From a virus: a stretch of DNA of 52,695 nt. Location: positions 1-52,695 of the IMG/VR virus record IMGVR_UViG_3300031730_000008. One strand, given 5' to 3'. A program made the translations under genes and the position numbers. The notes under the pieces were generated by a model. The model did no database searches. It saw only the letters and a program-made list of their open reading frames with translations, and was not told where the DNA came from. This document shows, in pieces, positions 128 to 52,695 of the stretch (its first letter is position 1; each line of letters starts with the position of its first letter).

Positions 128-1021
128 ACGGGCTTCGGGACTGGCGTCGCAACGGCATTGACTTTGAATATCGGATCGGCTGGCGCCCCGGTTCTCTTCA
201 ACGGTGCAGGCGGCACGCCTACGTCTTTGGTGCTGACTAATGCGACGAACCTGCCAACTTCGGCGCTCACGGGACTGACGCTAGCCGCTCAGGAACCCGC
301 CCATACAGGTGACGTGACGAACACCGCCGGCAGTCTTGCTCTGAACTTGAGTGCAGCGCGTTCCACGCTGCCGACTATTCAGCAATTCACGACCGGCAGC
401 GGCACGTACACCAAGCCCGCGAATACGCTATGGATTGAAATTTTACTGCAAGGCCCCGGCGGTGGCGGTTCGGGTTCTGGCACGACCACAACAAGCGGTG
501 CCGGCGGTACAGGCACCGGAACGTGCTGGAACACCTCCGGCGCGGCCTGTACGACGCCGGTTTACTCGGCAGGGCCTGGGGTTGGGGGCGTAGGTGGAGG
601 CAGCTTGGCAGGCGGTAGTGGCGGAGGCATTACGGGTTCGGCGAGTTGTACAACGTCAGTATCAGGAGCGGCAGGCACGGCTGCCCCCGTCGCAGCCGCA
701 ACTGGCGGAGCAGGTGCGGCGGGCGCGAGTAGTCCATTGGCGGGCGGTGGCGCGGGAGGCATCCCGGGCGGCGGTGGCGGTACTGGCGCCCCTGCTAACT
801 CAGGTGCGGGCGGTGGAGGTGCGGGTGGCGTCGCAACTGTTGCATCTGGCGGCGGCGGCGGTGCAGGTGCGTATTGTTACGTCATCATTAACACGCCAGC
901 CGCTAGCTACACGTACGCGGTAGGCCCCGGAGGTAGTGCGGGTGCGGCGGGGTCTTCTGGTGCTGCGGGCGGTACCGGCGCAGCCGGTTTAATTCGCGTT
1001 ATTGAGCATTACGGATCATGA
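2..1021 (+). CDS. Glycine-rich tail adhesin, 3' part (gene wraps from 52330)
   Basis: This continues the gene that starts at 52330; joined through the terminal repeat it encodes 419 residues. The part seen here has a Thr/Ala-rich linker, then from about residue 215 (TYTKPANTLW) a beta-like entry segment. About 180 residues dominated by Gly, Ala and Ser follow (runs such as GPGGGGSGSG), ending in a short hydrophobic strand (GLIRVIEHYGS). The layout matches glycine-rich fibre-tip domains and T-even gp38-type adhesins, whose polyglycine helices present receptor-binding loops. A role in host recognition is inferred from that architecture. The stop overlaps the next start as ATGA. Its N-terminal signal peptide (see 52330) is unusual for a virion protein. 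Confidence 0.8.
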   Translation, partial: ATVNANVGSFGSTTQCVAFTVDAKGRLTAASAATCAPAIGSVTGFGTGVATALTLNIGSAGAPVLFNGAGGTPTSLVLTNATNLPTSALTGLTLAAQEPAHTGDVTNTAGSLALNLSAARSTLPTIQQFTTGSGTYTKPANTLWIEILLQGPGGGGSGSGTTTTSGAGGTGTGTCWNTSGAACTTPVYSAGPGVGGVGGGSLAGGSGGGITGSASCTTSVSGAAGTAAPVAAATGGAGAAGASSPLAGGGAGGIPGGGGGTGAPANSGAGGGGAGGVATVASGGGGGAGAYCYVIINTPAASYTYAVGPGGSAGAAGSSGAAGGTGAAGLIRVIEHYGS

Positions 1022-1632
1022 GCTACAGCCCCACTACCGACTTTCTTGCACTACTGCGGCAGACAGCCGCGGGCGTGAATTTTGAACGCATGCCGGGGCT
1101 CGACTTTGTCTTGGCTGCGCTTGCGCGTGCAGGAATGTTCAGCGTTTCGGTGGGGCAGACTGCGCCAATCGTCAACCAATCCTCCACTGCGTGGCTCCGG
1201 GCCGCGTCTCCGTCATGGACTGCGGAAGGTATCTTGTATCTGTGGAATGCCGCTACCGTACAGTACGAAGTTGCCACGCCTGCGCTCTGGACTGCATTGA
1301 TAGCGAGCGGCGGCAGCTATGCATTTCAGTTAGTTAGCGTGGCGGCTGGCGTTGTAAACAGTGGCGTATCGTTGCTTGCGGTCCAGCGTTCCGCTCCGGT
1401 CACAACTTCGTTGATGCTGCCCAATCTTGTTAGTCAGTGGAGTACTGGGCGCCGGCTTCAGGTCGTGGATTTTTCCACAGCCGTAGCCCGGCACGTCATT
1501 ACGCTCACGGTGCCGGACACTGCCACAATCATGCAACGTGCATCGTGGCAGCTCGTTTCTACTACCGATCAGCTCACTGGAGTGACGCTGCAACCCTCCC
1601 CTGAACTTAACGCTTGGATCATTGCACCATGA
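1018..1632 (+). CDS. Tail-fibre adaptor-like protein, paralogue B
   Basis: 204 residues. The first ~100 residues (MSYSPTTDFLALLRQ, RMPGLDFV, ALARAG, LYLWNA) are clearly paralogous to the proteins at 51731 and 50593. The C-terminal half is unrelated to those paralogues and looks beta-rich. No signal peptide is present. It lies between two exported-type adhesin genes and overlaps both by ATGA, so it is probably translated with them. A conserved N-terminal module with swapped C-termini suggests it docks a fibre to the tail while the C-terminus varies. That role is inferred; no named family was recognised. Confidence 0.7.
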   Translation: MSYSPTTDFLALLRQTAAGVNFERMPGLDFVLAALARAGMFSVSVGQTAPIVNQSSTAWLRAASPSWTAEGILYLWNAATVQYEVATPALWTALIASGGSYAFQLVSVAAGVVNSGVSLLAVQRSAPVTTSLMLPNLVSQWSTGRRLQVVDFSTAVARHVITLTVPDTATIMQRASWQLVSTTDQLTGVTLQPSPELNAWIIAP

Positions 1633-3236
1633 AATTCATTGCTTCCGTTATCATCGCTCTTTTGTTTTTGGTTGCGCCTGCCACCGCGCAGTGGCAGGTT
1701 CCCGCACATTCTTTGCCGGTGGGGCTGGGAGGCGGCAACACAGGCTTTAATTCAGTCGGGCCATGTGCTACCGGCGTCCCCTTTGTTGGCCAGGGGGCTA
1801 CCACAGATCCAGCATGCGCGCCTATCGATTTGAATGGTGCCGGGGTTACGGGCACGCTTCCGCCTGCGAGGCTGCAAGCAGTGCCGAACAGCGCTCTGAC
1901 GGCTATGCCTGCCAAAACATTGAAGGGCAACAACACTGCGAGCCCTCTGACACTTGATTTGACAATTGCACAGGTCAAGACTTTGTTGTCGGCGGTTCCA
2001 GCGGTTACCGATCCGCTATACGGTGCGGACCCTACAGGTATCGTTGACAGTACGACGGCATTTCAGAACATCATTAGTGCTGCATGCGGTAACGGTTTTG
2101 GACATTTCCGCGTCCCCGCTGGTCGCTATCTCGTTACTAAAATTAATCAAACCAATTGCAACAACGTAGTGATCGATGGGGACGGAGATCAGTCTACCAT
2201 CGTCATGAACGGTCAGGATTTTAACGGTAATTGGTGGGACCTGTCCGGTTCAAACAATATTTCGTTTTCGCATCTTCGATTTGTCGATGGTGGTTTTCCT
2301 GTACGTATTGGGTTTCTATGGGCATGTACTGGAACTAACTGCAACGCAAGCGGCATCGTTGCAGGGCTTTCCTTTGACCACGTTAACGTGAGCGGTAAAT
2401 TCGTCTTGGCCGGCCTGTACGGATATGGCTACGGTCCTCTGGCGTTTTCTAATGGCGGAACGTTGATGATTGCCAACGCCAACTGGCAAAATACGTATAA
2501 TGGTCCAGTTGCCGCGTCAGAACGGACACGTACTGCCGTACTGATGCTTACGGCGTACAATATAGGATCGATAGTTTCATCGTACGTAACCGTGACAGCG
2601 ACTACGGCCATCGCATCACAAACCCACCTCGTCAACGCTAATATAAACGACATGGCTACGTCGGGATCGACGCTCAGCAACAATGCGGCAATCGTAACCG
2701 ATGGCGTAAACCAGTTCACTATGGTTGGCGGGCAAGTGGCATGTCTATGCATTGCAGATTTCATTGGGTGGACGAGCGACGAAGGTGTAGTATTCATTCA
2801 AACGGCGTTTCAGGAACCACTTGGCGCCGTTGCGTGCACTACCAAGTTTTGGGCTTTGTTTGGCGGTGGTGTCAACGCAGCCATAGCTTTTCACAATGTG
2901 CTATTTTCATGTCCCGGTACTGCACCGAGCGCGATTATCGGACTTGATCAAGGCATCTCTGCAGGCGAGGGCGGGATTTGGTTTTTGACGTTCACTGGTG
3001 ACGATGTCGGATTGAATAGTTTCAATCGGCCATTTATCGGCAAGACGGCGTCGGGCTGCGGCGCCTTTGCTGCGGCAAACAATTGGATACTGCTAAGCAA
3101 TATCAATATGGTGTCCGGTGCCAACAATCTTGATTTGTGCGGAGGGATTGATAGTCGGACCATTATTCAAAACGTCGGCACTGTGACGTTAGTAGGTGGC
3201 GCTACGGACCACGGTGCAGCAAACCCATTCAGGTGA
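1629..3236 (+). CDS. Tailspike with pectate-lyase-like beta-helix and signal peptide
   Basis: 535 residues. Starts at 1629, where ATGA overlaps the preceding stop. Residues 1-23 form a textbook Sec signal peptide (charged start, hydrophobic core, ATAQ cleavage region). A Cys-containing module follows (GVPFVGQGATTDPACA) resembling the adhesin at 52330. From about residue 135 (YGADPTGIVDSTTAFQ) it has the start motif of the pectate-lyase-3/beta-helix superfamily, with VPAGRYLV and a long beta-helix carrying repeated N-rich turns. Such domains in tailspikes cut capsule or O-antigen polysaccharide. Enzymatic activity is inferred from fold resemblance. The export signal conflicts with ordinary cytoplasmic virion assembly. 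Confidence 0.75.
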   Translation: MKFIASVIIALLFLVAPATAQWQVPAHSLPVGLGGGNTGFNSVGPCATGVPFVGQGATTDPACAPIDLNGAGVTGTLPPARLQAVPNSALTAMPAKTLKGNNTASPLTLDLTIAQVKTLLSAVPAVTDPLYGADPTGIVDSTTAFQNIISAACGNGFGHFRVPAGRYLVTKINQTNCNNVVIDGDGDQSTIVMNGQDFNGNWWDLSGSNNISFSHLRFVDGGFPVRIGFLWACTGTNCNASGIVAGLSFDHVNVSGKFVLAGLYGYGYGPLAFSNGGTLMIANANWQNTYNGPVAASERTRTAVLMLTAYNIGSIVSSYVTVTATTAIASQTHLVNANINDMATSGSTLSNNAAIVTDGVNQFTMVGGQVACLCIADFIGWTSDEGVVFIQTAFQEPLGAVACTTKFWALFGGGVNAAIAFHNVLFSCPGTAPSAIIGLDQGISAGEGGIWFLTFTGDDVGLNSFNRPFIGKTASGCGAFAAANNWILLSNINMVSGANNLDLCGGIDSRTIIQNVGTVTLVGGATDHGAANPFR

Positions 3237-3240
3237 CGTC

Positions 3241-3762
3241 ATGAGCTTCTATGACGCAGTGGTTCGCACGTCGGCGGCGTTCAAGTCGGACGCCATATGC
3301 AAGGATCTCGGCTTGCTGGAGCCGGGAACGCGGGCGGCGGTGCTGGCGATCGTGGACGAGGCTAAGACCGCCGGCCACGATCTTCGCGTGCTTGAGACGT
3401 ACCGATCCCAGGTCAGGCAACACGCGTTGTTTCTCCAGCATGCGACCAAACTCAGCACGGTCGGCTGCCACGGCTATGGCGTGGCCGTCGACTTCGGGGT
3501 GTTCATCAACGGCAAGTATGCCGAAGCGAACGGCCCCTATGTCTTCCTGCGCGAGCTGGCGCGCAAGCACGGCATGATCTCCGGCCAGGATTGGGGGCAC
3601 GCCCGCGAAGGCAGCTTCGTCGATAGCGGGCACGTTCAGCGGGTTCCAGTGTGGCGGCAGAGTGCTCTATTCAGCGGAGCATGGTACCCACCGGCTGAGG
3701 GCTACGATCCGTATGTCGACAGCAAGGTGAACGGTCATTTGGATGTCGTAGCGGTCCTGTAG
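3241..3762 (+). CDS. Endolysin, peptidase M15-like (D-Ala/L-Ala-D-Glu peptidase type)
   Basis: 173 residues. Shows the metal-peptidase signature of the VanY/M15 family: LETYRSQVRQ, then the zinc motif CHGYGVAVDFGV (His...Asp) and the second His in QDWGHA. Proteins of this type cleave peptide cross-links of peptidoglycan and serve as phage endolysins. No signal peptide, so release would need a holin; a holin-like gene starts at 4087. AGGTGA lies five bases before the ATG. The 3' end overlaps the convergent small gene 3735-3965 by 28 bases. Confidence 0.85.
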   Translation: MSFYDAVVRTSAAFKSDAICKDLGLLEPGTRAAVLAIVDEAKTAGHDLRVLETYRSQVRQHALFLQHATKLSTVGCHGYGVAVDFGVFINGKYAEANGPYVFLRELARKHGMISGQDWGHAREGSFVDSGHVQRVPVWRQSALFSGAWYPPAEGYDPYVDSKVNGHLDVVAVL

Positions 3763-44686: not shown

Positions 44687-45835
44687 ATGCGAAAGTATCT
44701 CGTAGCGCTCGCGCTTCTGGCCACGGTCTCAATGGCGTCGCTGTTGTGGCTGCCGCGCGCAATCACGCAGCAAGGCGGACAACTCCCGAACGGCGGTGGC
44801 GGCACCATCCAGGGGCCGAACGGCAACCCTGCGACCGTCAACGGCAACAACGAGATGCGGGTTAATATCGAGGGCCAGCAGCTCTTTGGCGATACCTTCG
44901 ATCAGCCTACGGCCGCGCCGGTTCTTAACACTACTCAGAATTGGACCGTTACGGCAGGTAACGGCGGCACTGCCGCTGCGCTGAACGGTACGGGCACCAA
45001 CAACGCCGGCTCCATCGGGATCAGCTCCGGCACGACCGCGGGCGGTTTCTCATGCGTCACCGGCAAGGTTGCCTATGCGCCCGTCCCTCCGGGTTTCCTT
45101 GTCTATGGGTTCCGTATTCAGCTTCCTGCGGCTCTCCCGGTCAACACGTACGCATTCTGGGGTGCGTCGGCTTCGCAGCTTGCTTCGCCCACGGTCGCGT
45201 CGCCGTTGACTGAGGGTCTTGGCACGGAAATCACGGCTACCGGAAAAATGCAAACGGTGTCCTATGCCGCTGGCGGGGGCGTTGGCGGCCGTACGCTGAT
45301 TACTGATCTTTCGGCAACTGGCACCAACAAGCAACCTTTAGACGGTGCGACGTACACGCACTATGAGTATTTCCGAGGTGACAAGTTCTACTTTGCGCTC
45401 ACGGATCAGGACAACATCACGTCGACAGGAACCGGCGCGCAGGGACCGAATATCAATTCAATGAAACCGACGATCTGCGTTATGGCGCAGGCCGGCGCGG
45501 TGTCCAGTTTGACGCTGACGGTGTCCTCGGTGTTCGTCGGCGACAACGGTCACAACACTATGGGGCTCACGCCGTACAGCTATTTTAACATGACGACGGG
45601 CACCACTTCCCTAGTGAAATCCGGTTCCGGTTTCCTTCACAATGTGTGCATCAACACACCGGCCGCCGGCACGCTGTTGGTGCTTGACAGCTTGACGGGC
45701 GCCGGCGTGCACATCGGCCAGTTGACGGAAGTGGCTGCGCAGATACCGGCATGCAGCATTTTTGACGTTCAGTTTCTCACCGGCTTGACGCTGAGCACCA
45801 CGGTAGCCGGCGACATCACGGCAAGCTACAGGTAG
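44687..45835 (+). CDS. Beta-rich putative virion protein with signal/anchor sequence
   Basis: 382 residues. N-terminal MRKYLVALALLATVSMASLL is a signal peptide or anchor. The rest is Gly/Thr/Asn-rich beta structure (GNNEMRVNIEGQQLFGDTFD, TYTHYEYFRGDKFYFALTDQ, TTSLVKSGSGFLHNVCINTP, LTLSTTVAGDITASYR), as in phage receptor-binding or base proteins. Function unproven; one of several exported-type structural-like proteins here. Confidence 0.65.
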   Translation: MRKYLVALALLATVSMASLLWLPRAITQQGGQLPNGGGGTIQGPNGNPATVNGNNEMRVNIEGQQLFGDTFDQPTAAPVLNTTQNWTVTAGNGGTAAALNGTGTNNAGSIGISSGTTAGGFSCVTGKVAYAPVPPGFLVYGFRIQLPAALPVNTYAFWGASASQLASPTVASPLTEGLGTEITATGKMQTVSYAAGGGVGGRTLITDLSATGTNKQPLDGATYTHYEYFRGDKFYFALTDQDNITSTGTGAQGPNINSMKPTICVMAQAGAVSSLTLTVSSVFVGDNGHNTMGLTPYSYFNMTTGTTSLVKSGSGFLHNVCINTPAAGTLLVLDSLTGAGVHIGQLTEVAAQIPACSIFDVQFLTGLTLSTTVAGDITASYR

Positions 45836-49245: not shown

Positions 49246-50148
49246 ATGTCCGGCTTCGACAACGGCACGACGCAGAGCGGGGTATTTTTTCAGACCAAGC
49301 AATTCGGCGCGATCATGCGCGGCTTTGGTCCTCCCGTTCCGCAATCCGGCGTTGTCGGCGACGTTTACATTGACGTACAGACGTGGTTTCTCTATTCGAA
49401 ACGGTCCCCGGATGCAGGCGGCGACGTCGATCCCTGGGGGCACTACCTGTTTCAAGTTCCTGTCACGTACCGTACAGCGTTAAAATGGTTCAGCGCGTAC
49501 GCTCCGACCGATGATGTCGGCATCGCAAACGACTATTGCCTGCTTTGGGGTGGCTGGACGAACTACGGTTTGCAGCCTTCGATTTTCGGACCGAAGCAAG
49601 CGACGAGCTGGCCAGAGAATGGCAACGGCCCCGATACGACGATCGCAGCGGCGGGAGCCGGGACGACGCTGCAAGTTGGCTTGGTCGACGAGGGGCTCGC
49701 GCTCGCGGAGAGCAATTCGACACAGCTTATCGTCGTCGGCTTGGTCGACGAGTACATTCTTGGCATCCCGGTCACCGCGGGTGCGGGTTCGATCGTATCG
49801 CAGCTCGGTTTGCAATCCGGCCCTGCGAACATCGCTGTCAGTCTCAACCCGCAGTATGCGGCAGAGGATACAAACATCGTGCCCAACTTCACAAACATAG
49901 TTCCGGGCGAGCAGAACAATGTTTCAATCGCAGTGGCCTCCCATCTTACGGTACCCGCAACCGCAACGTACGCAATAGTCACGGCGGTGGGCGGAACTAT
50001 GTACGCAACGTACGACAACTCCGTACCGAGTAATGTCAATTATGCTATTGCGATCGCTGCAGGTACGTCGCTGCCCGTAACTGGAACGGCCGCACTCGCC
50101 GCAATCAGAGTGCAGGGATCTTCCATGAGTGTGAGCTACTGGAATTAG
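49246..50148 (+). CDS. Modular tail-fibre protein
   Basis: 300 residues in three parts: residues ~1-120 (SGFDNGTTQSGVFFQTKQFG, GPPVPQSGVVGDVYID, WGHYLFQVPVTY, NYGLQPSIFGPK) paralogous to 50150. The middle ~120-215 is a repeat-like GLVDE region with a 15-bp repeat. The C-terminal ~85 residues (EQNNVSIAVASHLTVP ... MSVSYWN) are shared with 44302. A composite appendage protein built by module exchange. Confidence 0.72.
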   Translation: MSGFDNGTTQSGVFFQTKQFGAIMRGFGPPVPQSGVVGDVYIDVQTWFLYSKRSPDAGGDVDPWGHYLFQVPVTYRTALKWFSAYAPTDDVGIANDYCLLWGGWTNYGLQPSIFGPKQATSWPENGNGPDTTIAAAGAGTTLQVGLVDEGLALAESNSTQLIVVGLVDEYILGIPVTAGAGSIVSQLGLQSGPANIAVSLNPQYAAEDTNIVPNFTNIVPGEQNNVSIAVASHLTVPATATYAIVTAVGGTMYATYDNSVPSNVNYAIAIAAGTSLPVTGTAALAAIRVQGSSMSVSYWN

Positions 50149-50149
50149 C

Positions 50150-50587
50150 ATGTCAGGTTTTGACAACGGCACTCTGCAAGGTGGGATTTTCTCGCAGTCG
50201 AAGCAATTCGGCGCGATCCTGCGTGGGCTGGGGCCGCCCGTTCCACAAGCCGGCGTTGTTGGTGATCTGTATGTCGACGGACAGACGTTCTTTCTGTACA
50301 GCAAGCGATCACCCGACAGTGGCGGGGACGTCGACCCGTGGGGCCACTACCTGTTCTTGGTGCCTGTGACCTACCAAACGCGGCTGAAGTGGTTCTGTGC
50401 TTTCGCGCCGACCAACGATATCGGCATCGATGGCGACTATGCGTTGCTCTGGGGCGGGTACCCGAACTACGGCTTGCAGCCTTCAATCTTCGGTCCCAAG
50501 ACCGCCGGAGCATGGCCAGGGAGCCCGGTTGCGGTACCCGTGAACATTAATCTTCTGTACACTGCAGAGGATAGCCACGATGTCTGA
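50150..50587 (+). CDS. Short paralogue of the modular tail-fibre protein
   Basis: 145 residues. N-terminal ~120 residues align throughout with 49246 (SGFDNGTLQGGIFSQSKQFG, SKRSPDSGGDVDPWGHYLF). It then ends with a short unique tail. PKTAGAWPGSP also resembles PKALGAWPATP inside 50593. Likely a shorter fibre subunit or a truncated copy. Confidence 0.72.
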   Translation: MSGFDNGTLQGGIFSQSKQFGAILRGLGPPVPQAGVVGDLYVDGQTFFLYSKRSPDSGGDVDPWGHYLFLVPVTYQTRLKWFCAFAPTNDIGIDGDYALLWGGYPNYGLQPSIFGPKTAGAWPGSPVAVPVNINLLYTAEDSHDV

Positions 50588-50592
50588 GGCAC

Positions 50593-51729
50593 ATGGTTTA
50601 TAACCCCGCAACAGATTTCTTCTCGCTCTGGCGCAACAATGCCGGGCAGGTCTCCAAATTGGAGGTGCCGGGGCTTGACGTCGTGATCGCTGCGCTGGCG
50701 CGTGCGGGCCTCTTCACGCTTTCGGTGTCCGCCACTGCCCCCGTCGCCAACCAGTCAACCACGGCTTGGCTCAAGGCCGCCGTGCCTAGCTACTCAGCCG
50801 AAGGTGCCTTGAACCTCTGGGACAAGGTGACGACCACGTACCTACCGGCCACGGCTGCGCTATTCCTGCAGCTTTTGGAGGCGACGGCGGGGCAGAACGG
50901 CGTTTCATGGTGGACGGCAGCCGGCGGCCCGCCGCTGAACACTGTCGGTAACAATGGCGATTTCGCCGTGCGCACAGATGCGCCGAACGGGATCTACGGG
51001 CCGAAGGCACTCGGGGCATGGCCTGCTACGCCGATACCGGGTACCGCTGACGTTCTTACCAGTCTTTCGCTTGACAACACGTTTGGGTCTGCGCAGGGAG
51101 ACTTGATCTACCGGGATACAGCACTATGGAAGGCGCTACCACTTGGCGCAGGCGGTTCCGTACTTGCATCTTGGTTTGGTCTTCCAGCATGGCAAACGTT
51201 TTCTACGCTGTTTGACGCAGTCTTTGGGGCCGTACAAGGTTCGATTTTGTATCGCAGTGGCGCTAGCTGGAACGCGCTCGGGCCAGGTATCGCGGCTCAG
51301 ATTTTATCAACGAACGGACCCGGCGCCAATCCGGCGTGGGTGCCGCGCACGGCTGAGTTTCCATCTGGCACTGTCATGCTGTTTCAGCAGTCTGCGGCGC
51401 CGACAGGCTGGACGAAGCAAACGGTGCTCAATGACTGCGGCCTGCGCGTGACTTCTGGTGCTGTCAGTACGGTAGCAGGAACGGCGTTCAGCACTGTATT
51501 TGCGCAAACTGCTGTCGGCAGCACAACATTACAGACTACGCAGCTTCCTTCGCACACGCATGGCGTTCCCCTTAACAGCGGGGGAGGGGTCGGGCTCGTC
51601 GGTACTTCTGGAACGGGAAGCATAGGCAGCACGCCAACCGATGGCGGCACGGGCGGTCAATTGTCGCACACCCATTCGATACAGTTGGCATTGTCGTACA
51701 CAGACGTCATCATAGCAGCAAAGAATTGA
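50593..51729 (+). CDS. Tail-collar-domain fibre protein
   Basis: 378 residues. Residues ~1-100 are the adaptor module shared with 51731 and 1018 (YNPATDFFSLWRNN, GLDVVIAALARAGLF). The middle contains QGDLIYRDTALWKALP / QGSILYRSGASWNALG repeats. The end is a phage tail-collar domain (FPSGTVMLFQQSAAPTGWTK, TQLPSHTHG, SHTHSIQL, YTDVIIAAKN). Collar domains cap fibres and bind surfaces. Confidence 0.82.
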   Translation: MVYNPATDFFSLWRNNAGQVSKLEVPGLDVVIAALARAGLFTLSVSATAPVANQSTTAWLKAAVPSYSAEGALNLWDKVTTTYLPATAALFLQLLEATAGQNGVSWWTAAGGPPLNTVGNNGDFAVRTDAPNGIYGPKALGAWPATPIPGTADVLTSLSLDNTFGSAQGDLIYRDTALWKALPLGAGGSVLASWFGLPAWQTFSTLFDAVFGAVQGSILYRSGASWNALGPGIAAQILSTNGPGANPAWVPRTAEFPSGTVMLFQQSAAPTGWTKQTVLNDCGLRVTSGAVSTVAGTAFSTVFAQTAVGSTTLQTTQLPSHTHGVPLNSGGGVGLVGTSGTGSIGSTPTDGGTGGQLSHTHSIQLALSYTDVIIAAKN

Positions 51730-51730
51730 T

Positions 51731-52333
51731 ATGAGCTACGCGCCTACAACAGACTTTGTTTCTCTGCTACGGCTGGTGTCCTCCGGCGGCGTGCGCGTGG
51801 AACGCATGCCGGGGCTTGATTTTGTTGTCATAGCGTTGGCGCGAGCGGGGTTTTTTGATCTCTCGGTATCCGACACCGCGCCCACTACCAGTCAAACAAC
51901 TACGGCGTGGTTCAGGCCGGCCAAGCCTTCGTGGGCTGCTGAAGGCGTCCTGTATCTATGGGACGCAGACAGCTTGTCATACCAGCCTGCGACGACTATG
52001 CTATGGTCTGAACTGCTGATTACATCTAAAGCTACTACAAACACGCAAATGATTAAGACACCAGGGCCGGTGACCATAGGTGCGACTATCGATCATGTCT
52101 TGGTTAACCAGACAGTGAGCGCACCAATCACTTTAATTTTGCCGCTGGCTTCGACCAAGCCAAATGAGGTTTTAGTGTGCGATTGGAAAGGCGACGCAGG
52201 ACTTGGTAACACTATTTCAATTCAAACTACTGGAACCGACATATTTCCGGGCGCCATCACAACTTGGCAGATAGCGGCCAACACAGGCAGCGTGCTGTTT
52301 CATCCGATTACGGGGCTGGGATACGCGATATGA
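51731..52333 (+). CDS. Tail-fibre adaptor-like protein, paralogue A
   Basis: 200 residues: MSYAPTTDFVSLLRLV, RMPGLDFVVIALARAGF, EGVLYLWDADSLSY, then a different beta-rich C-terminus. Paralogous to 1018 and to the start of 50593. ATGA overlap with the exported adhesin at 52330 repeats the arrangement of 1018/1629. Confidence 0.7.
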   Translation: MSYAPTTDFVSLLRLVSSGGVRVERMPGLDFVVIALARAGFFDLSVSDTAPTTSQTTTAWFRPAKPSWAAEGVLYLWDADSLSYQPATTMLWSELLITSKATTNTQMIKTPGPVTIGATIDHVLVNQTVSAPITLILPLASTKPNEVLVCDWKGDAGLGNTISIQTTGTDIFPGAITTWQIAANTGSVLFHPITGLGYAI

Positions 52334-52695
52334 AACATCTGTTAAAATTTCTGGTTTTGGCTTTAGTTGCCTTTGATACGGCTGCGTACGCCGCAAGCGG
52401 TACACTGAATAATCATGCTTTCGCGATCGGTAAAGGTGCAGGCGTAACTGGTTATACGTCGCTGCTCTGCCCATCCGGGCAGTTCCCAATGGGGCAGACT
52501 GCGGCCGATCCTCTGTGCGTTGCTGCATCCGGCGACGCAACCATGACGGCTGCCGCTGTACTGACGTTGGCCACAGTTAACGCGAACGTGGGCTCGTTCG
52601 GCTCGACAACGCAATGCGTCGCTTTTACGGTTGATGCCAAAGGGCGGCTTACGGCTGCATCGGCCGCGACATGCGCCCCTGCAATCGGTAGCGTC
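52330..52695 (+). CDS. Glycine-rich tail adhesin, 5' part (continues at 128)
   Basis: First 122 of 419 residues. A clear Sec signal peptide (MKHLLKFLVLALVAFDTAAY, then AAS) is followed by a Cys-containing module (SLLCPSGQFPMGQTAADPLC) resembling GVPFVGQGATTDPAC in the tailspike at 1629. The remainder, including the polyglycine domain, is at 128-1021. ATGA overlap with 51731. Confidence 0.8.
   Translation, partial: MKHLLKFLVLALVAFDTAAYAASGTLNNHAFAIGKGAGVTGYTSLLCPSGQFPMGQTAADPLCVAASGDATMTAAAVLTLATVNANVGSFGSTTQCVAFTVDAKGRLTAASAATCAPAIGSV
52570..52695. repeat. Terminal direct repeat, right copy
   Basis: Identical to 2-127; see left copy. Confidence 0.9.

Follow-up and report, generated by a model that had tools for sequence, protein, structure and literature searches.

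The tip half of a host-recognition spike that is split between two proteins in soil phages carries a convincing Sec export signal and paired cysteines, and thus part of the tail is probably made outside the cytoplasm, where phage tails are not supposed to be built. The window (the whole 52,695-nucleotide stretch analyzed, IMG/VR virus record IMGVR_UViG_3300031730_000008) contains two tandem units, each consisting of an adaptor gene lacking a signal peptide (SP) followed by an adhesin gene having one. The same two-gene unit was found in 56 non-redundant loci from IMG/VR viruses and from Rhodopseudomonas and related genomes. The features predicted from sequence suggest that export followed by disulfide formation is likely, although actual export and cleavage are inferred from sequence alone.

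Two adaptor-adhesin cassettes in a circular phage genome

The original prediction was that two units, 51731 with 52330 and 1018 with 1629, share a plan in which the genes overlap by ATGA, the first protein lacks and the second has a Sec signal peptide and the second has a post-signal Cys module. That observation was confirmed, and both the coordinates and the plan are correct. The two contig ends repeat 126 bp (2-127 is identical to 52570-52695; base 1 differs) and hence the genome closes on itself and ORF 52330 continues at 128 and stops at 1021 to give a protein of 419 aa. Note that the register of 127 equals a common assembler k-mer and thus the repeat is probably a circular-contig overlap rather than a true terminal repeat. 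The gene content (terminase, head-closure protein, DNA-ejection-type protein, a 1409-aa transglycosylase protein and T7-like replication genes) fits a short-tailed, podophage-like virus. The genes at the end of the late region are as follows.

50593..51729 (+), collar-type tail fibre of 378 aa, no SP, 1 Cys; residues 1-100 are the same adaptor (A1) domain as in the two adaptors
51731..52333 (+), adaptor 1, 200 aa: A1 docking domain (docking inferred; 51731-52036) plus C-terminal ct domain type I (52037-52330); no SP, 1 Cys
52330..52392 (+), predicted Sec signal peptide of adhesin 1 (MKHLLKFLVLALVAFDTAAYA, followed by A); the ATG lies inside the ATGA overlap
52393..52695 (+), mature adhesin 1 (predicted), first part, with type I module HAFAIGKGxGVTG...C47...DPLC63; continues across the contig ends at 128
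128..1021 (+), mature adhesin 1, remainder: Gly-rich tail-fibre-like C-terminus (Pfam Gly_rich_2, weak); the whole mature protein has 8 Cys
1018..1632 (+), adaptor 2, 204 aa: A1 domain (1018-1320) plus ct domain type II (1321-1629); no SP, 0 Cys; AlphaFold pLDDT 82, ct part predicted to be a tail-fibre-type beta domain
1629..1688 (+), predicted Sec signal peptide of adhesin 2 (MKFIASVIIALLFLVAPATA, followed by Q); ATGA overlap
1689..3236 (+), mature adhesin 2 (predicted; the whole protein is 535 aa): type II module QWQVPAHSLPVGLG...C46...DPAC63, then a pectate-lyase-like/tailspike-like region; 12 Cys
3241..3762 (+), M15-type endolysin directly downstream, no SP, which marks the end of the tail/lysis part of the late operon

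Four points of the original prediction required correction. First, the shared motif had been given as GxPxxGQxAxxDPxC, which adhesin 1 does not match exactly, and is better written as two cysteines 16-17 residues apart, the second in DPxC (C47/C63 in adhesin 1 and C46/C63 in adhesin 2). Second, there are three copies of the adaptor domain rather than two, because the A1 domain also begins the collar-type fibre (52% identity to adaptor 1). Third, the units had been called a duplicated cassette, but they are not a recent duplicate. Type I cassettes (mature start QNxGTVTNHAFAIGKG) and type II cassettes (QWQTPNHSVPIGRG) each form cross-genome families, and five other contigs carry both, four in the order seen in the window and one reversed, indicating two old paralogous cassettes. 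Fourth, the beta-helix attributed to 1629 rests on weak matches only (Pfam PF12708 below cut-off; PHROG tail spike, E=3e-7) and the AlphaFold model of the protein had a pLDDT of only 47.

Scans with the adaptor domain and with the post-signal modules brought in IMG/VR contigs and a contig of Rhodopseudomonas sp. B29. In whole genomes the type I module was found in 8 of 399 sampled genomes of the GTDB family of that strain (one of them B29 itself) but in no other of 384 sampled genomes of its class, whereas the type II module was found in 5 of 399 genomes of the family. The hosts are therefore most likely relatives of Rhodopseudomonas. In contrast, tblastn searches of INPHARED with adaptor 1, the adhesin 1 N-terminus and the N-terminus of an SP-bearing collar fibre gave no match, and adhesin 2 gave only weak lyase hits.

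Just upstream of the fibre gene of the window lie two tandem paralogues (49246-50148 and 50150-50587; 77% identity over 123 aa) that start MSGFDNGTxQ, the second of which shares a short stretch with the fibre. A third late-region protein of the window (44687-45835, 382 aa, 4 Cys) begins with an SP-like or anchor-like segment (MRKYLVALALLATVSMASLLW...), but had no family match and no relative among the fetched loci.

Signal peptide features and cysteine pairing of the adhesins

To determine whether the N-termini of the adhesins behave as signal peptides, we applied a rule (home-made, rather than SignalP) requiring a net positive n-region, an uncharged hydrophobic core and small residues at -3/-1. 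The rule was satisfied by 54 of the 56 non-redundant adhesins, by 77 of 676 control genes of the same loci (11%) and by 0 of 37 upstream adaptors (Fisher p=1e-42). The two failures are one mis-set start and one near miss. The commonest predicted site is AxA↓Q (35 of 54), and in the 54 rule-positive proteins the +1 residue is mostly Gln and never Cys. Hence there is no lipobox such as that of the exported superinfection lipoproteins (Llp, Cor), and a lipoprotein reading was rejected. An autotransporter reading was also rejected because no C-terminal translocator barrel domain was found by Pfam in 50 members.

The original prediction held that receptor-binding proteins that assemble on tails in the cytoplasm should not be exported, and offered either a retained docking helix or display or secretion by the infected cell. 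In the hydrophobic core, identity between family members is much nearer to what composition alone gives (type II, 0.225 versus 0.150 shuffled; type I, 0.32 versus 0.19) than it is in the module, whereas A at -1 and Q at +1 are near-invariant and conservation climbs sharply from +1. That is what a cleaved signal peptide looks like and not what a docking helix looks like. An uncleaved, unexported docking or trimerisation helix that anchors the adhesin to the adaptor would keep all tail assembly in the cytoplasm and would fit the one-to-one coupling with the adaptor, but such a helix should conserve side chains, and here the core tolerates most hydrophobic residues. Nor does it explain the cysteine data given below, and we consider this reading unlikely. 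Moreover, the same kind of SP precedes an unrelated collar-type tail fibre located upstream of the adhesin in the Rhodopseudomonas-type phages (fetched loci, numbered with the prefix L: L004, L006, L009, L012, L014, L015, L017, L018, L020, L053, L087, L089, L092, L106 and L107), whereas the cyanophage Pam5 homologue of that fibre, Pam5_16, lacks it. In some of these fibres one Cys pair is replaced by another (L012, L014) or lost (L020, L107).

Could the SP-like stretch be a chance hydrophobic sequence upstream of the real start? Although Shine-Dalgarno sequences are weak at many of the junctions, 54 of 56 loci keep an SP, the ATG sits at the adaptor stop in most, and no conserved alternative start lies between SP and module. 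An annotation artefact is thus contradicted by the comparative data and is very unlikely. Frameshift fusion of adaptor and adhesin was also rejected, because the gaps between the genes vary (-4, -1, +2, +16, +33).

Cysteines were counted from the module onward so that signal-peptide cysteines were left out. Of the 49 complete adhesins with any cysteine, 44 have an even number (binomial p=8e-9), and with one protein per 50%-identity cluster the value is 27 of 29 (p=8e-7), whereas in other genes without SP 102 of 218 (47%) were even. The two module cysteines are present together or absent together in every adhesin listed, through several separate changes. Reading the list by eye gave 25 with both, 31 with neither and 0 with one, whereas a crude automated pattern count gave 22, 33 and 0, probably because it missed or mis-framed some segments; both give zero singles. 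SP-less proteins with the same adaptor domain are nearly Cys-free. The adaptors have 2 cysteines in 32 proteins of about 203 aa (0.03%) and the other A1 proteins 0.25% Cys, as compared with 1.75% in the adhesins. The simplest cause is disulfide formation, which normally requires an exported, oxidising compartment. However, there is one clear exception. In locus L044 (5998-7980 and 7981-9195) the A1 domain is fused directly to a beta-helix-like tip that lacks an SP but has 16 Cys (protein L044.14), and thus Cys-rich tips can exist without export. Further large SP-bearing proteins (533-656 aa) with even Cys counts are found in the same late regions (L024 1172, L028 1212 and L039 367), but these are unrelated at the N-terminus to the module proteins.

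Relationship of adaptor and adhesin to fused tailspikes

A ct-domain gene was found immediately upstream in 54 of the 56 cassettes. Of the other two, L007 has a mis-set start and L036.13 is a second adhesin in tandem (in L036, 1650-2528 and 2525-3922 are two SP-adhesins behind one adaptor). The N-terminal half of the upstream gene is A1 in the group of the window and a different domain in the Rhodopseudomonas-type phages, yet type I tips go with type I ct domains and type II with type II without exception. That A1 docks on the virion is inferred from its place at the start of a collar fibre.

Three fused relatives were found in which adaptor and tip are one SP-less polypeptide. The annotated tail spike of cyanophage Pam5 (Pam5_18, ON014757.1) matches a non-A1 adaptor over residues 1-164 and the SP-adhesin of the very same locus (L017) over residues 239-531 (5e-12 and 2e-42). 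It has the same neighbouring genes (collar fibre and a 112-aa protein), but has no SP, no Cys and no Cys module. In L042.16/L035.14, A1 is joined to the collar-type tip of SP-adhesin L036.23 (2e-18). Finally L121, a provirus-like locus in a genome of the same host family, fuses another adaptor N-domain to the tip of L087.47 (60% identity). In the fusions found, the SP is missing whenever the tip is joined to its adaptor. Fusion in relatives is a classic sign that two separate proteins work together, and these data indicate that adaptor and adhesin are halves of one tailspike.

The ct domain is predicted with good confidence (pLDDT above 90 over most of it) and matches domains of tail fibres in the viral fold library, but a PDB fold search of the adaptor gave only weak hits (the best phage hits, KP1 baseplate and Pa223 capsid spike, had E values of about 0.01-0.04). 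Adhesin C-termini are diverse, as expected of receptor-binding tips; among 50 adhesins, PHROG and Pfam matches were to Gly-rich, collar, F5/8C, CBM, pectate-lyase-like and several tail-fibre families. Within a type, ct and module distances correlate only slightly better than do those of A1 and module (0.47 versus 0.37). This mirror-tree comparison is not decisive, and physical contact is not demonstrated.

A model for assembly and its alternatives

The interpretation given in the original prediction was partly supported. The data favor export with cleavage over a retained helix, but it does not follow that exported proteins are displayed or secreted rather than being virion parts, and "exported" and "tail component" are probably both true, which is the real puzzle. 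In the model we favor, though we hold it only about as likely as not, the adaptor is made in the cytoplasm and attached to the tail through A1, and its ct domain offers a socket. The adhesin, translated by coupled re-initiation at ATGA, would be the receptor-binding tip, sent through Sec, cut after AxA so that the mature protein usually begins with Gln, and folded in the periplasm with its cysteines paired. When the cell lyses, the mature tip would meet the virion and its conserved N-terminal module would dock on the ct domain. The sequences themselves show the split architecture, the SP features, the step in conservation at the cut site, the even cysteine counts and the fused SP-less relatives. 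In contrast, export and cleavage in cells, presence of the adhesin in virions, the identity of the docking partner and docking at or after lysis are inferences, the last because export plus virion membership implies that tip and adaptor meet only when the compartments mix. Export and disulfide formation are strongly indicated by sequence but not demonstrated, and virion membership is indicated by the fusions, the one-to-one coupling and the tail-fibre nature of the tips. Note that post-lysis docking must work despite dilution, and that no virion proteomics or export assay was found for these phages.

The main rival keeps export, but has the adhesin act on the infected cell or its debris as a soluble tip, masking or cutting receptors so that progeny are not trapped or superinfection is blocked, functionally like T5 Llp or lambdoid Cor/Lom but built from a spike tip. 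The export and disulfide evidence fits this reading equally, and adhesin C-termini include carbohydrate-binding and lyase-like domains. Exported proteins encoded beside receptor-binding genes exist, as in T5, where llp lies next to oad. Lom lies between the tail spike and tail fibre genes and has a signal peptide (PMC12309495), but is not a tail part; this was the nearest published fact found on signal peptides among tail genes. Llp, Lom and Cor are small lipoproteins or a beta-barrel, not spike tips. Against this reading are the strict one-to-one coupling with a ct adaptor that would otherwise be a tip-less spike, the three fused relatives in which the same tip is part of the spike, the lack of a lipobox Cys at +1, and the finding by Pfam of no autotransporter or other translocator domain to reach the outside. 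It seems possible but is less likely than the split spike.

Modular spikes in which a virion-docking protein carries a separately encoded swappable tip have precedent in the two-protein lateral fibres LtfA/LtfB of DT57C (PMC4728585), but those tips are not known to carry a Sec signal peptide. Literature searches for Sec-exported tail fibres in tailed phages, limited to open-access papers, found no report, and one lead, Circe gp063, led nowhere. The filamentous phage adsorption protein pIII is a receptor-binding virion protein with a cleaved Sec signal peptide and disulfides, but it is membrane-anchored, is assembled at the inner membrane and is unrelated in sequence and virus type.

Tailed-phage virions are taken to be assembled in the cytoplasm. 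The evidence does not exclude that some tailed phages finish their receptor-binding spikes elsewhere, with tips Sec-exported, oxidised in the periplasm and mounted on virions only at or after lysis, such that tail assembly spans two compartments, although we hold this only tentatively, as somewhat less likely than not. A conserved family of spike tips with export signals and paired cysteines would mean that part of the host-recognition machinery matures in the periplasm, would make phage infectivity depend on the host Sec and Dsb systems, and would allow tips to be exchanged between virions at lysis. A cultivated relative from non-pathogenic Bradyrhizobium makes the proposal testable. The tail fiber of Bradyrhizobium phage ppBdUSDA122-1 (WAX24263.1), the host of which is a relative of the hosts found here, has a signal peptide (MKLQRLLGAIGAVVMSVSTALA, followed by A), a matching Cys module and 18 Cys, although the phage has a different tail type and no A1 or ct adaptor was recognised next to the fiber gene.
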